Shown piece by piece: positions 4,157 to 38,373 of a DNA stretch of 40,685 nt (the stretch's first letter is position 1; the number at the start of each line of letters is the position of its first letter). This DNA comes from Candidatus Micrarchaeum sp. Lineage in GTDB: Archaea > Micrarchaeota > Micrarchaeia > CABMEP01. The stretch lies in the NCBI GenBank assembly GCA_020723065.1, contig DYJP01000007.1, forward strand, positions 1 to 40,685. The letters run 5' to 3'. A program made the position numbers and the translations under genes. The notes under the pieces were generated by a model that was not told the DNA's origin, made no database searches, and saw only the letters and a program-made list of their open reading frames with translations.

Positions 4157-4435
4157 TTATCTCTTTTTCTGTGCCTTCTGCAAAATCTCCAATGCCTTCC
4201 TTATTGCAAGTTTGACTTCTCTTTCAGTCTTGCATCCAGTGCAAATGATCTTTCCATTCTTGAAAAGCAACAAGGATGACTTCGGCTCCTTTAACTTGAG
4301 GATTGCACCGGGAAACTGCTCAGGCTCATACTCAATGTCCGAAACCTTTCTTCCAAGAGAATAAAGATCGAGCTCGATTCCGAGATTTGCGGAAGCGACT
4401 ATATTCTCGATATTGAATTTAACGTCTTTTACCAT
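4157..4435 (-). CDS. tbp: TATA-box-binding protein, single repeat only (~92 aa)
   Basis: MVKDVKFNIENIVASANLGIELDLYSLGRKVSDIEYEPEQFPGAILKLKEPKSSLLLFKNGKIICTGCKTEREVKLAIRKALEILQKAQKKR matches the TBP repeat (NIVAS..L, YEPEQFPG, KEPK..LLLF..GKI.CTG.K); stops after one repeat, no second repeat in any frame nearby. Confidence 0.9.
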   Translation of the reverse strand: MVKDVKFNIENIVASANLGIELDLYSLGRKVSDIEYEPEQFPGAILKLKEPKSSLLLFKNGKIICTGCKTEREVKLAIRKALEILQKAQKKR

Positions 4436-4444
4436 AAAAAACAC

Positions 4445-4491
4445 CTTGCACCGCTTTAAAAAGCCTTAAGGCGGTATTTATATAGTGCAAG
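4445..4491. promoter_or_regulatory. Inverted repeat enclosing the TBP TATA-like box and leader region
   Basis: CTTGCAC (4445-4451) ... GTGCAAG (4485-4491), nested CCGC (4451-4454)/GCGG (4471-4474) and palindrome GCCTTAAGGC (4463-4472); TATA-like TATTTATATA at 4475-4484 (minus strand TATATAAATA). Confidence 0.5.
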
Positions 4492-4640
4492 AAAAGTATT
4501 TAAATACTAATATAAACATATATATGTTAGAAAAAACCACGGATGCATATTTTTAAACATATCTTGATATAATATAGTATCTAGTTATGCATTATATGCA
4601 AATAACCTAGAGTAGATTATAAATTGGAAATCGTGATAAT

Positions 4641-4925
4641 ATGGTAAAAGCATCAAAAGGAAGAATGCACAGGAGAAGCAGAGTGCTTGGAAGAAACACA
4701 AGAAAGAAAGACGTCACAGTAGTCGAAAAGATAAAGACTCTGGAAGTTGGCACTAAAGTGCAGCTTGTTCCGAACGCAAAATTCGAAGACTTCCCCCACC
4801 CAAGATACGCTGGCAGAGTGGGCAAGGTCATCAGAAAGCAGGGCAACGCATATGTGGTGGAGCTCCAGGACGGCGGAGTCAAGAAGAAGTTCATCACTAC
4901 AGCGATTCACCTGAAATCATGCTGA
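4641..4925 (+). CDS. rpl21e: 50S ribosomal protein L21e
   Basis: MVKASKGRMHRRSRVLGRNTRKK...HPRYAGRVGKVIRKQGNAYVVELQDGGVKKKFITTAIHLK; followed by rpoF as in many archaea. Confidence 0.95.
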   Translation: MVKASKGRMHRRSRVLGRNTRKKDVTVVEKIKTLEVGTKVQLVPNAKFEDFPHPRYAGRVGKVIRKQGNAYVVELQDGGVKKKFITTAIHLKSC

Positions 4926-30229: not shown

Positions 30230-33200
30230 TTAGTCTAATTTTATTTTTTCAATTTTTCTAGGCTCTTTCGGTGAATCTTTTTTAGTAAATGCATATGTGA
30301 CAACCGCTAACACGCAGAGTAATATTCCAATATAAATGAACGTCGGATCAAAAAGATTTAATCTGTTTTCTCCTGTAGAAAGCATCTCGGACTGTATGTA
30401 ATTGCTTAAAAGCATGGAATCAAGATACATTCCGTTGTTGTAAGCGGTTTTTGCTGAAGAGAACATCGGCTGCAGCTCTGTTATCTTCTGCTTTTCTTCC
30501 GCTGTTCCGCTCTTCATCTTTTCATCAAATAATACAGAAATGTCCTTTATCAGCTCATTGGAACTTTCCCTATATCGTGAAGTGAAATTAGATAGATAAT
30601 CAATGTTGAATGTTATGTTATTGGTAATTTCCGACATTTCTTCAAATTCCTCAAAGTTTTCAAGCATCTCTTCTGTATTGTATTCCTTAAGTTTGAAATA
30701 AATTGCGCTTAATTCCTCTACGGCAGAATCGGTTTCATTCATTCTGGCCACCAGCTGGTTGACTGAATTAGGAATAGACTGGATCGGGTTATTTTTACTC
30801 ACGGAAAAAGTACTGAACAATCCTGATTTCTGCTTCTTCCAGGAATCAATCGCTCCCTTTGCGGAATTCAAATTTAAGGAGAAATACACTGCTGCAGATC
30901 GGGAAGAGTTTTCAACTTGATCGCGTATCTCATCCAAACTGATTGAGGCCCCATTAAGTCCAGTCAGCGCTGAATAGTAGTCGTTTGAAGCTGTTGCGGG
31001 AGCGACCACGGACAGCTCCTGCTTTATCTGTTCGATTTCTTCCAGGATAGCACTCACATCAGTAAACCTACTTAAGGAGAAGATAATGTTCTGCATGTCA
31101 AAAAGCTCATCTGTAAGCTTTTTCTCCTTGCTGTACAGCACATTATCAATCTTGTTTGAAGAAACCATCGACTCCAGATCTTTGATTATTTCTTTTGCAC
31201 TGGAGATGTCTCCAGAATTGAGTCGATTTCTGGCGTCCTTGACCTTGCTGTCATATTCTGCTATCTGCTTTGAGATTTCCACAGAGACTCCTGCCAACGA
31301 AAGATTAGATGAAATAGAATATATCTCCGCGGACTTGTTCTTCAGCTGAGAGATTTGAGCGGAAATCTTATCCAATCGCTCGGTCAACGAATTATTCTCT
31401 ATCTTCTTGTTGACGGCGAGCGTTATTGTTTTCCTAGCCTTCTCAAGGGAATCGATTGCAGTATTGTAGTTGCCGGTGCTTGCCTTATATTGTGCATCCC
31501 TAATAAAATTGGAGACATCGACAGATTCATAATAAGAGGAATTCTGGATGTCCGCTTTCAGGTTAGAGTAATAGCTTGCAAGATCATTCGCCCTATACTG
31601 GACAGTGTAGTTGATGTATTCAGACGAAAGAAGAGGAATGATCCATTTGGCATAGTACCTGTCTCCATATTTATACGAAGAATAGTTATCCGGAACCTCT
31701 CCGGAGATTTCCGTAACCCTTATGCTTAAGGGATCTATCTCATTTACATAGCCCAGAAGTTGGAGAGTGTAGTCCACATTTTCATAATCTTCATAGTTGC
31801 TCTTTAGATGCAGGATGTAGCGAATGTAACCGTCCTCCTCTGTGAAGTTACTGGAAAGGAAGGAAATCGGCTCGTTTCTTACGCAGGTAGCCTCGACTAC
31901 AGACCTTCCCACCTTTGCTCCAGATATTAGAATTGAAAGATTCGAAAGAGACCTAACTATCTGTGATTTGCCGTTCATATAGACTGCGCAAGAATCTGCA
32001 TTGTATCCGTCTGAGAGTAACAAACTGTCAGTATCAAAATTCGAATCTATATAGTAGGTGATCTTCTCAACGAGCCTTGTATCGGAAAGAGAAATCCTTT
32101 TCACTGATTTCGAGGACAGAACAGCCGGCTTGATATTTGTCTTTATTGTTATATAGTATGTCGTATTCTCGGAGATATTTGAAATATAAAGCAAGATGCC
32201 GGTTCCATTCTTTGTTGCATAAACTCCGGAAGGAGTAGAATGCACTATGCTATTAACTGCGAACGGGATATTTTTAACTGAAATTATCACTGGCTTCGAG
32301 CTTGTCAATGCAAGGTCGTTCTTCACTTCAAGATAAGATGTTACATTCACGTACGAATCTACGGCCGGAACAGAATCGAATGAATTGGTGAAATAGTACC
32401 TATTGGAAAGATAGTCTCCAATGATTTCGCTTGACTTCCTTTCAAGATCACTAAGGATGCTTTCATATGCTGACTTTATCTTGAAATAGCTTCCCAACGT
32501 TTTTGACGGAACAAAGTCACCTCCGGAGAAATACGTTTCCTGGACGCCGAGTCTTGAATTCATCTCCGAAACGTAATCTGAAACGTCCACGTATTTGCTC
32601 AAACTGTCCAGGAGCCTGTAAAGCCTCAACCTCACGTTCTTAAGTTTGGAATACTGAGATTCGGCCCTTGAATATATCGCACTTTCCGCATCGTTGACTG
32701 CTGAAATCGATTCATCTATGAATGTGATATTTGAAATTTCAAGCGAAAGTATGGATTTCTTTGAATCCATAAGCTTCTCTTCGGAAGTAACATCTATCCC
32801 GTCCAACTTTGCTTTTTGAATGACAAGATTAAGCTCCTGAAGAGAAGTATTCAGGGCCTTTAATTTTTCTGATTTAACGTCCCACGCCTTTGCTGCGATT
32901 GTTTCATTGATCTCGTCGAGAAGAACGCAAGCAGAATAAAGGTCCGATATTCTCGCTCCTTTCGTAGTTTCGAACGGATTATAATTGTCATAAATCTCAA
33001 GAGCACGGTTATATTTCTGAGTTACGGAATCAAGCACTGATGCGGTGGAAGTGTCCCAGACGCTGTAGCTTTCTATCTTTGCGTGGGTCTCGTTAAGCTT
33101 CTGCACCACCTTTGATTCTAATAAAGAAAGAACCTCTGAGACTTTCAGCTCAATTCTTTCCGAAAGGTTGAGAGAGTATTCGGAAATGAAAATCGAAGAG

Positions 33201-34456
33201 GAAAGAAATTCCATTCCTTTCGCATAATAGAATTCTGTTTTGTCTCGCACACCAGTTTCTGCCTGCGAGATAAGCATTTCTGCTCCAACCTTCGATCCAG
33301 ATCCATGAAGGATTGACTCCAGCTCTGCTATAGCATTCGAAGGTATTTGGCTGACGTCAGACTCAAGAATAGTTGTCTGAGAATCATTTGAAACATATGC
33401 AATCAAAGAAGAACTGACAAGATCATAGCCGTTGTCACGCATATAGTCAAGCTTTGAATCTGCCTCTTCGTACTTCATCTTCGATATTGAAAGTAAGGAA
33501 TGATAGTTGGACTTAAGTTTGGCCCGCTCAGACAAAGTCTGCCTATAAAGATCAAGCATACTGCTAAATGCGGAAAAATATTCTTTGGAATGCATTATTC
33601 CCATCTCACAATTTGAGAATATGCGGGAATCGTTGCCAAGTTCAGAGCTCTTTTTCTGAACATAAAGATAGCTGTAGGATTCTCTTTGGGGATCCAGCCT
33701 GCCCGACTTGTAGTCACTTATCAGAGACCTTATCCTTTCGTCATAGAATGAAGAAGCGCTTGAAGAGTAATTCTGATAGCCCGCCCCTTCATAGTAAAGC
33801 GAATCTGCCTGCTCCTGAACTGCTGAGAAAAGCAGGTTCATAGATCTCGCCCCATTGCTGTATGTGCTTTCCTGGGAAGAGAAATAATTGTCCACACTGA
33901 TCAGCACGTCCACCCATAAATCTCCGAACAACATGTCTATTATCTGATCTTTGAAGATGTCATTGCATGACTCAATATAAGTCGGAAATAAAAGCACCGA
34001 ATTAATCCTGTTTATGGTACAATTGAAAGAAGAAAGGAATATGTTGAACCATCTGTTCTTCAGATTTTGAAGATGCCTGTCGCTTGAAATCATTAAATCG
34101 TATGAGTCCTTTAAAGAACCTGAAATCTCTTCTGAACTCATCTGGATGTTTGATGAGATGTAATCACTGGATTCTATACAGAAGTCATACACGAACGCCC
34201 CACATTTACCTTCATAGTCTTCAGGAATTGAACTGCATCCTGCAAAAGGAAACTTCTCACTTATCGGATATATGCTCCTAAGCGAGTCGTTCTCACTCAC
34301 CATCATCCTATATCCCTGGTCCAAAGGAAATGGCACTGAAGAAGCGAATGAAAATGAATAAATTGAAATTAGTATGAATGCTATCAGCATTAGACCGTGG
34401 TCGGCCAAAAAATCGCGATACGAGATTATCTTGTTCTCGCCATCTTTGAAACCCAT
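30230..34456 (-). CDS. Giant (1408 aa) surface protein: N-terminal TM/signal, extracellular coiled-coil region, C-terminal TM anchor
   Basis: Hydrophobic LMLIAFILISIYSFSFASS near N-terminus, FIYIGILLCVLAVVTYAFTKKD near C-terminus followed by basic tail; long helical Ser/Asp/Glu-rich middle. Confidence 0.8.
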   Translation of the reverse strand: MGFKDGENKIISYRDFLADHGLMLIAFILISIYSFSFASSVPFPLDQGYRMMVSENDSLRSIYPISEKFPFAGCSSIPEDYEGKCGAFVYDFCIESSDYISSNIQMSSEEISGSLKDSYDLMISSDRHLQNLKNRWFNIFLSSFNCTINRINSVLLFPTYIESCNDIFKDQIIDMLFGDLWVDVLISVDNYFSSQESTYSNGARSMNLLFSAVQEQADSLYYEGAGYQNYSSSASSFYDERIRSLISDYKSGRLDPQRESYSYLYVQKKSSELGNDSRIFSNCEMGIMHSKEYFSAFSSMLDLYRQTLSERAKLKSNYHSLLSISKMKYEEADSKLDYMRDNGYDLVSSSLIAYVSNDSQTTILESDVSQIPSNAIAELESILHGSGSKVGAEMLISQAETGVRDKTEFYYAKGMEFLSSSIFISEYSLNLSERIELKVSEVLSLLESKVVQKLNETHAKIESYSVWDTSTASVLDSVTQKYNRALEIYDNYNPFETTKGARISDLYSACVLLDEINETIAAKAWDVKSEKLKALNTSLQELNLVIQKAKLDGIDVTSEEKLMDSKKSILSLEISNITFIDESISAVNDAESAIYSRAESQYSKLKNVRLRLYRLLDSLSKYVDVSDYVSEMNSRLGVQETYFSGGDFVPSKTLGSYFKIKSAYESILSDLERKSSEIIGDYLSNRYYFTNSFDSVPAVDSYVNVTSYLEVKNDLALTSSKPVIISVKNIPFAVNSIVHSTPSGVYATKNGTGILLYISNISENTTYYITIKTNIKPAVLSSKSVKRISLSDTRLVEKITYYIDSNFDTDSLLLSDGYNADSCAVYMNGKSQIVRSLSNLSILISGAKVGRSVVEATCVRNEPISFLSSNFTEEDGYIRYILHLKSNYEDYENVDYTLQLLGYVNEIDPLSIRVTEISGEVPDNYSSYKYGDRYYAKWIIPLLSSEYINYTVQYRANDLASYYSNLKADIQNSSYYESVDVSNFIRDAQYKASTGNYNTAIDSLEKARKTITLAVNKKIENNSLTERLDKISAQISQLKNKSAEIYSISSNLSLAGVSVEISKQIAEYDSKVKDARNRLNSGDISSAKEIIKDLESMVSSNKIDNVLYSKEKKLTDELFDMQNIIFSLSRFTDVSAILEEIEQIKQELSVVAPATASNDYYSALTGLNGASISLDEIRDQVENSSRSAAVYFSLNLNSAKGAIDSWKKQKSGLFSTFSVSKNNPIQSIPNSVNQLVARMNETDSAVEELSAIYFKLKEYNTEEMLENFEEFEEMSEITNNITFNIDYLSNFTSRYRESSNELIKDISVLFDEKMKSGTAEEKQKITELQPMFSSAKTAYNNGMYLDSMLLSNYIQSEMLSTGENRLNLFDPTFIYIGILLCVLAVVTYAFTKKDSPKEPRKIEKIKLD

Positions 34457-36430: not shown

Positions 36431-36540
36431 AACAACAACACCTAGATAATAACTCTCAAAAGAAATAAGAGCGTATCTCAAAGGTATATTTAAATAGATA
36501 TTCCCTAAAATATCAGACATTGATAATATTCGGTGTATTA

Positions 36541-38373
36541 ATGGAAATAAAAAAAACAAAAACTAGATCTGTATACCCCGGGCTGTTTATTCTCTTAACA
36601 TTAATGATTTTAGTGCTCTCATCCGGATGCGTCCAAAAGAAAATCTATCCTTCTGAAAAAGAAATTATAAAAAACGAAAGGCTCTCGGACCTTGATAACG
36701 ACGGAATACCTGATGAGCAGATCTACACCTTCGAGGCCAAGTCAATAGACTCAGTAAACATAACTAGGGAAATACTTGTCCACAAGAACCTTGGCAACAA
36801 TGTAACCGTAAGGCTCAATATAATAACCAAGGCGTCGGACAAGATAACTGATATTACAGTAAGGGAAACGATACCGACCGCTCTTGCACTTAACATAGAG
36901 AAGCTCACTTTCACGCCCAAGTACAGCGAACTGCTGAGGGCGGAACCGCCGATAACGGTCAGCTGGGCATTCACCTTCTCCGGAAGAGAGAACATAGGAA
37001 AGACTATCGAATATAATGTCATGGTCTTCCAGGAAATAGACAAGACATGGATAGAGAAGTATGTGCAGTCACCATACATAGAAGTGAACACCATAGACCC
37101 TGAAAACGTTCCGTTCTTTGTTTCAATCTCCAAGATAGGAGAAGGGGTGTATGGAGTTCTCAAATCGAACCTTGACTTCTATATTGCAACCTCGATCTAT
37201 GCTTCGCTTATATTCATCATGATACTCATATACCTGGAATTGCTCGCACTCTTCGGAGCATATGTCGTCAGCCTTGTCAAGAAGACCCCTCTCATGAGCG
37301 AAGTATACAACTTCATAGGCCATGGAAGGAAGGACAACACAGTCTGGGCGATAACCGGAATAGCGATGATAGTGATAGGTGTTGCGATAATATTCTTTAC
37401 GAAGGAAGCTGCCGGAAGCGCAGACCTTGAGACTTTAGTAAGGCTCGGATCCAATGTTCCCAAACTCATAGGTGGCTTTGCGATAGCGATCGGAATGATC
37501 TCTATATACTACTCGATAGTGGACATCCTGAAGGGATCGGTCTTCGGCGAAAGGTACTACATGTCCGCACTTGACATGGCAAAGGAACGGATAAGACAGA
37601 CTATCTCGCTTGTGGACGAGCTTGAAAACAATATAATGCACGCGGTGGAGAACAAGATAGACACTGAAACAGAGGAGATAGTCGCGCAGGTGGAGAGAAA
37701 GCGCATGGAAAGATACATGGTGGACATAAACCAGGAAAACGCAGATCAGTATCTTCCACAGATAGTCAAGTCTATGTCAGACGTGCAGGGCGCGATAGAT
37801 AGCATCTCAGGGAAAGGAGAGGTTCTGGAAAACTGGCCTTCCTGGAGAAGGAACATAGACGAGCTCCTAAAGACTAATGACAAAGTGGACATAAGCATGC
37901 TTGCAGACATTCCTGGAAGATGGAGGAAATGGGCCCTTACAAGGTACATGTCTGAGCACATAGGGGAATCCCTCACTATAGAGGAGGGCGCCCTCAAGAG
38001 AATCAAAACCGCGATAATAGACAAGAGCGAAGTCAACCAAGTGCTAAACACCCTCATGAGTGGAGGAAAGGTGGAGGGGGTGGCGACCGTAAGAAAGGAC
38101 GGGCTTCTTGTCGCGTCCATGCTTCCGAAAGAGATAGATCAGAACCTAATAGCGGCTGTGACCGCAAGGATGATAGCCAATTCAGACATGGCATCCCTGG
38201 AGCTTGAAAAGGGCAAGGCTAACTTCATAATACTCAAGGGAGTGGACGGAGACGCCATCATATACGCAGGAAGGACCATAATACTCGTGTCTCTGGTCAA
38301 GAAGGGCGAGACCATAGGCTTCATAGTCTCTGAAATGGCAAAGGCAATCGAAAAACTTGACGCCCTGATCTGA
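36541..38373 (+). CDS. Lipobox-bearing transmembrane protein with DxDxDG Ca-type loop and C-terminal Roadblock/LC7-like domain
   Basis: LVLSSGCVQ; LSDLDNDGIPDEQ; several TM segments; C-terminal SEVNQVLNTLMSGGKVEGVATVRKDGLLVASMLPKEIDQNLIAAVTARMIANSDMASLELEKGKANFIILKGVDGDAIIYAGRTIILVSLVKKG. Confidence 0.78.
   Translation: MEIKKTKTRSVYPGLFILLTLMILVLSSGCVQKKIYPSEKEIIKNERLSDLDNDGIPDEQIYTFEAKSIDSVNITREILVHKNLGNNVTVRLNIITKASDKITDITVRETIPTALALNIEKLTFTPKYSELLRAEPPITVSWAFTFSGRENIGKTIEYNVMVFQEIDKTWIEKYVQSPYIEVNTIDPENVPFFVSISKIGEGVYGVLKSNLDFYIATSIYASLIFIMILIYLELLALFGAYVVSLVKKTPLMSEVYNFIGHGRKDNTVWAITGIAMIVIGVAIIFFTKEAAGSADLETLVRLGSNVPKLIGGFAIAIGMISIYYSIVDILKGSVFGERYYMSALDMAKERIRQTISLVDELENNIMHAVENKIDTETEEIVAQVERKRMERYMVDINQENADQYLPQIVKSMSDVQGAIDSISGKGEVLENWPSWRRNIDELLKTNDKVDISMLADIPGRWRKWALTRYMSEHIGESLTIEEGALKRIKTAIIDKSEVNQVLNTLMSGGKVEGVATVRKDGLLVASMLPKEIDQNLIAAVTARMIANSDMASLELEKGKANFIILKGVDGDAIIYAGRTIILVSLVKKGETIGFIVSEMAKAIEKLDALI

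Follow-up and report, generated by a model that had tools for sequence, protein, structure and literature searches.

A one-lobe TATA-binding protein is the only TBP found in a Candidatus Micrarchaeum genome and probably acts as a homodimer

In the textbook view, the TATA-binding protein (TBP) is everywhere a saddle of two lobes and goes back to one ancient duplication of a homodimer. The minus-strand open reading frame at positions 4157-4444 of the window (the whole stretch of 40,685 nt that was analysed) raises the question of whether a single TBP lobe can be a complete protein and, if so, how half a saddle would serve an organism as its TBP. The existence of one-lobe archaeal TBPs is already on record: Ravarani et al. 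2020 mention them, citing Brindefalk et al. 2013 (PMC7221094); in the text available to us, the mention is confined to a single sentence of the methods, which gives neither species nor distribution and nothing on mechanism or promoters. Apart from that sentence, no study of one-lobe TBPs was found in the open-access literature, nor any paper there that names the clade or reports what is described below: a single lobe serving as the only TBP, genomes with two such genes, re-duplication and the promoters.

The gene stops at 4157 and has two possible starts, of which ATG 4435 is likelier than GTG 4444. Translation from ATG 4435 gives a protein of 92 aa, MVKDVKFNIENIVASANLGIELDLYSLGRKVSDIEYEPEQFPGAILKLKEPKSSLLLFKNGKIICTGCKTEREVKLAIRKALEILQKAQKKR. 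The gene and its divergent neighbour are arranged as follows:

4157..4435, minus strand: one-lobe TATA-binding protein, 92 aa; TBP lobe at residues 6-88
4307..4333, minus strand: codons of EYEPEQFPG, residues 35-43, with the DNA-bending Phe41 and with Glu37/Glu39, the TFB-contact signature L3.2/L3.4
4244..4273, minus strand: codons of LLLFKNGKII, residues 55-64, including the second DNA-bending phenylalanine, Phe58
4641..4925, plus strand: ribosomal protein L21e (PF01157), divergent neighbour of the one-lobe TBP gene

L21e is the first gene in a run L21e-rpoF-DUF655-(Yip1)-ksgA (PF01157, then PF03874, PF04919, PF04893 and PF00398). Elsewhere in the window, a 617-aa protein at 36520-38373 has a Roadblock/LC7 domain near its C-terminus as its sole Pfam match, and two large ORFs, at 30-2744 (904 aa) and 30230-34456 (1408 aa), are without any Pfam match.

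The ORF at 4157-4435 encodes one complete TBP lobe. Pfam TBP PF00352, itself a one-lobe model, matches once and at almost full model length (residues 9-90 of 95, model positions 1-84 of 85, 101.9 bits against a cut-off of 22.9, E 1.7e-29), which confirms the single-repeat TBP that an earlier note had read from the sequence at 4157-4444. NCBIfam models of full-length TBP cover only a single lobe in their alignments, and all fall far short of their cut-offs (the best with 89.6 bits against 270). In a PDB search, the best matches were both lobes of the M. jannaschii, S. acidocaldarius and P. woesei TBPs (2z8u, 1mp9 and 1ais), and an AlphaFold2 model (single chain, 7-sequence alignment, pLDDT 85) fits a single lobe of M. 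jannaschii TBP with a TM-score of 0.83 and an rmsd of 0.8 Å over 79 columns. With these canonical two-lobe proteins the 92-aa protein thus shares lobe sequence and fold, and it also shares the DNA-bending phenylalanine pair (Phe41 and Phe58) and the acidic TFB-contact pair of the C-lobe stirrup (Glu37 at L3.2 and Glu39 at L3.4); its genome, like theirs, has TATA/BRE promoters and a full-length TFB. It differs in having one lobe instead of two tandem lobes per chain (~180 aa), so that a saddle needs a dimer, in which the two stirrups would not differ from each other. We file the protein as a one-lobe TBP variant and not as a canonical TBP, since a check for two lobes found only one.

A single TBP-type lobe that binds nucleic acid also occurs as the N-domain of bacterial RNase HIII. 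That lobe, however, is fused to a nuclease, is far more remote in sequence (rnhC model, 12.7 bits) and is not a transcription factor, whereas the 92-aa protein is free-standing; its ORF holds nothing else, and in particular no catalytic domain of the RNase HIII or glycosylase type, as befits a single-lobe archaeal TBP. Nearest to the one-lobe proteins in sequence are the lobes of two-lobe TBPs in five families of Micrarchaeota (f3, f8, f11, f12 and f15); these differ in carrying two tandem lobes, which are 58-82% identical to each other, compared with 42-54% in the three solved archaeal TBPs.

The residues on which TBP function turns are conserved among the one-lobe proteins. Phe41 and Phe58 are present in 104/104 one-lobe sequences and the minor-groove Asn is invariant in the same set; Glu37 is found in 104/104 and Glu39 in 103/104, the sole exception being a Glu-to-Asp change. 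L3.2 and L3.4 are defined as signature positions for TFB binding in PMC7221094, and their placement on the EPE of YEPEQF is our own mapping. The TFB of the same genome is a single, ordinary protein of full length; it has both cyclin repeats, and its core can be aligned with P. woesei TFB from end to end. A BRE-TATA motif is present as well.

Is the lobe the whole of the TBP complement, or has a second lobe been lost from view? The assembly of Candidatus Micrarchaeum sp. comprises 651,815 bases in 22 contigs and is 92.4% complete. A whole-genome TBP search returned one match only, the one-lobe gene, and since an unfiltered six-frame HMM scan of 647 kb gave nothing better than E ~0.8 beyond it, there is no second TBP, lobe or remnant in the scanned sequence, either near the gene or elsewhere. 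The earlier note's claim that no second repeat lies up- or downstream in any frame is therefore borne out, and a two-repeat TBP elsewhere in the genome, which it had named as the finding that would speak against it, did not appear in these six frames. The gene is the sole TBP in the assembly; a second one-lobe gene could still lie in the unassembled part. The note's other proviso was that ~270 bp might be missing from the locus. Such a local assembly deletion is ruled out because a gene of the same length is found in the family relative (L026) and in dozens of relatives, near-complete and complete genomes among them. An assembly gap or a pseudogene, which a draft in 22 contigs might bring to mind, is thus barely conceivable: the frame is intact, the key residues are invariant, and a state kept so widely in an essential factor is not that of a broken gene.

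The one-lobe state extends well beyond this genome. We surveyed 60 relatives within Micrarchaeia, of which 57 had a TBP match; with classes counted by hand from the match table, one-lobe TBPs alone occur in 44/57 and a two-lobe protein in 13/57, and the family pattern is unchanged in a wider class sample, in which 281 of 296 genomes had a TBP match. The one-lobe genomes include three in a single contig (G034, G057 and G068) and one in 3 contigs (G010). Most one-lobe families carry a single gene, f6 has two or three copies, and twelve f4 genomes among the 60 relatives have two diverged one-lobe genes at distant loci. The complete genome of Ca. Micrarchaeum A_DKE (NZ_CP060530.1; L102) likewise carries a pair of separate one-lobe genes and lacks a two-lobe TBP. 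A second phylum-level group (19 genomes) is mostly one-lobe, and in a third group one genome (G301, grouped with AR10) stands out among mostly two-lobe relatives by a single gene of the one-lobe type. The earlier note dealt with one locus; its one-lobe reading holds there, but the trait is class-wide and not specific to the locus.

The survey also turned up several unusual TBP relatives. In f6, two or three near-identical one-lobe genes stand beside a slightly different one (L044, L045/L046, L043 and L047); in G027 (L044, G027:C62) two near-identical genes lie ~1 kb apart, and L045/L046 are in G017. The f4 pairs (L031/L032, L033/L034, L035/L036 and others) and that of NZ_CP060530.1 (L102) may each form an obligate heterodimer. 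A very divergent one-lobe relative (L048 1450-1764, G042:C12) has lost the EPEQFPG stirrup; a normal one-lobe TBP is also present in G042. In the second phylum-level group, G387 has a 726-aa open frame with four TBP-lobe matches (G387:C8:9538-10695) and also encodes a two-lobe TBP with a long Lys/Ala-rich tail (L186). Weak free-standing TBP-like frames of 95-99 aa are found in G302 (AR10, complete; G302:C1:420110-420310) and G004 (G004:C9:21028-21222), both of which have two-lobe TBPs. Finally, a two-lobe archaeal TBP lies on DAOWAC010000024.1 (L149), although that record is titled as a Chloroflexota bacterium; the contig has probably been mis-binned or mislabelled.

How, then, would one lobe do the work of a saddle? 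We consider it probable that the 92-aa protein is the general TATA-binding protein of the organism, reduced to one lobe, that it forms a homodimer saddle, and that TFB and the BRE set direction. The edge strand by which the two lobes of ordinary TBP are joined would serve as the contact between two copies, giving the usual ten-stranded saddle; this symmetric homodimer would bend the DNA by inserting a phenylalanine pair at either end of an 8-bp TATA box, and each of its own ends would present a stirrup for TFB. A single full-length TFB would then occupy one of these stirrups, and the direction would be picked by the contact that this TFB makes with the A-rich BRE, which lies upstream of the TATA box. 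Dimer formation and DNA binding are inferred here. In ordinary archaea, direction is already set by BRE-bound TFB (PMC7289017), and bending by M. jannaschii TBP requires both phenylalanine sets (PMC4041446); for these reasons, the loss of lobe asymmetry should be tolerable.

The promoters of the genome speak to the size of the DNA-binding unit. A de novo motif search of 315 upstream regions of long ORFs, with no TATA information supplied, found AAAnnTTTWWAAW, with an 8-bp core at ~-29 to -22 from the ATG and a log-likelihood of 232, whereas six dinucleotide-shuffled sets did not exceed 75; the promoter pattern is thus an 8-bp TTTWWAAW TATA box with an A-rich BRE upstream. Two lobes leave a footprint of a full 8 bp, so the box is most naturally read as the site of a dimer on DNA, and the homodimer that the earlier note had proposed gains support as probable; from a single lobe, recognition of no more than about half of the core would be expected. 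A monomer, with a single lobe on half a TATA box and TFB holding the rest, would have a parallel in those archaeal TBPs that bind stably only with TFB (PMC7289017). Nevertheless, we regard it as decidedly unlikely: both ends of the box are kept, the M. jannaschii protein does not bend DNA with one phenylalanine set, and the exposed inter-lobe edge would presumably need burying.

A heterodimer with a second, diverged one-lobe TBP, encoded in the unassembled part of this genome, is also unlikely. Two diverged genes at separate loci do exist in the twelve f4 genomes and in Ca. Micrarchaeum A_DKE, and in such lineages a heterodimer may do the same job. In f1, the family of the present genome, however, there is no second TBP match in this genome (92% complete) or in its family relative (82%), and f5, f9 and other families include near-complete genomes with exactly one one-lobe gene, such as G010 and the single-contig G068.

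Returning to the homodimer, one might look for its symmetry in the TATA box. The one-lobe G010 and the two-lobe G118 and G302 have the same core width and the same A-rich upstream element; the EM motif search gave no usable motif for G034, and among small tRNA sets a usable one only in G010. Extra palindromicity was not found in the one-lobe genomes, with asymmetry medians of 0.39 and 0.58 against 0.43 and 0.67 in the two-lobe ones. We therefore rejected TATA palindromicity as a mark of a symmetric TBP; as the box is not measurably more palindromic than that of two-lobe relatives, promoters alone do not reveal a symmetric protein. The earlier note had argued that a symmetric dimer would remove the intrinsic polarity of TBP and leave direction to TFB and the BRE. 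The role of TFB and the BRE stands, but it is less special than the note implied, being already the rule in ordinary archaea, and the TATA boxes add nothing to the claim.

Two candidate TATA boxes precede the one-lobe gene itself:

4455..4462, minus strand: candidate TATA box of the one-lobe TBP gene, TTTTTAAA, -27 to -20 from the ATG; tentative, read from the sequence
4477-4484: second TATA candidate of the one-lobe TBP gene, TATATAAA, read from the sequence

The gap between the TBP and L21e genes (window 4445-4528) also contains several palindromes, namely CTTGCAC...GTGCAAG around the TBP promoter, AGTATTTAAATACT and AACATATATATGTT, which might possibly mark an operator or divergent promoters.

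Where did the single lobe come from? The earlier note took it for a fusion of a repeat-1 front to a repeat-2 back. When scored on repeat-1 and repeat-2 profiles, each built from 25 two-lobe DPANN proteins, the protein resembles repeat 1 in its front half (+6.0 bits) as well as in its back half (+27.4 bits), and no breakpoint emerges (best gain 0, p = 1.0). A weak lean of the back half towards repeat 2 (-2.9 bits) is seen only with a profile in which Pyrococcus, Methanocaldococcus and Sulfolobus dominate, and a breakpoint is not significant there (p = 0.64) or against Micrarchaeal two-lobe proteins (p = 0.11). The chimera is thus highly improbable and the claim falls. Of the 104 one-lobe sequences, which are not independent of one another, 97 lean towards repeat 1; together with the missing breakpoint, this would fit a two-lobe ancestor that lost its second lobe. 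In the f4 two-gene genomes and in Ca. Micrarchaeum A_DKE, the B type is without the clear repeat-1 lean of the A type.

A different origin, which would leave the mechanism untouched, is that the one-lobe homodimer is a retained ancestral state and the duplication never occurred here. One-lobe forms in two phylum-level groups would agree with this, as would lobes 73-85% identical in some two-lobe proteins, as if recently duplicated. Even so, we find it rather unlikely, as the protein is repeat-1-like over its whole length and falls among DPANN lobes, not outside both repeats of other archaea.

If a lobe was lost, it may also have been regained. At least two of the two-lobe proteins in the second phylum, L186 and L187, look re-duplicated from one lobe, because their lobes are 83-85% identical and fall among one-lobe sequences. 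In a lobe tree of 106 sequences, which has only 80 columns and is weakly resolved with many open forks, one ancient repeat-1/repeat-2 split for all two-lobe proteins was rejected (p-AU 0.022), but not when L186 and L187 were left out (p-AU 0.157); neither a single duplication for the Micrarchaeal two-lobe set (AU 0.54) nor a single clade of all one-lobe sequences (AU 0.63) was rejected. In the TFB tree, the two-lobe families of Micrarchaeota are united in one clade (97/98) that lies among one-lobe families, which implies at least 3 changes, although long branches affect both the root and the placement of f5 and make the direction of change uncertain. This placement is consistent with a single return to two lobes at the base of that clade; alternatively, two lobes may have been retained there with several losses elsewhere, or the lobes may have been homogenised. 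Whether the whole class uses a symmetric TBP homodimer that arose by lobe loss, with two lobes regained by new tandem duplications in some descendants, is in our judgement evenly balanced.

The assumption that every TBP gene encodes a whole saddle is broken. A living clade with one lobe as sole TBP makes the supposed ancestral homodimer directly testable, and the natural series of one gene, two separate genes and a re-fused two-lobe gene offers a way to learn what lobe asymmetry is for. If the reading of loss and re-duplication is true, TBP architecture would be reversible, and the state before the duplication could be studied alive, also in cultured relatives such as Ca. Micrarchaeum, where the saddle may be a heterodimer.
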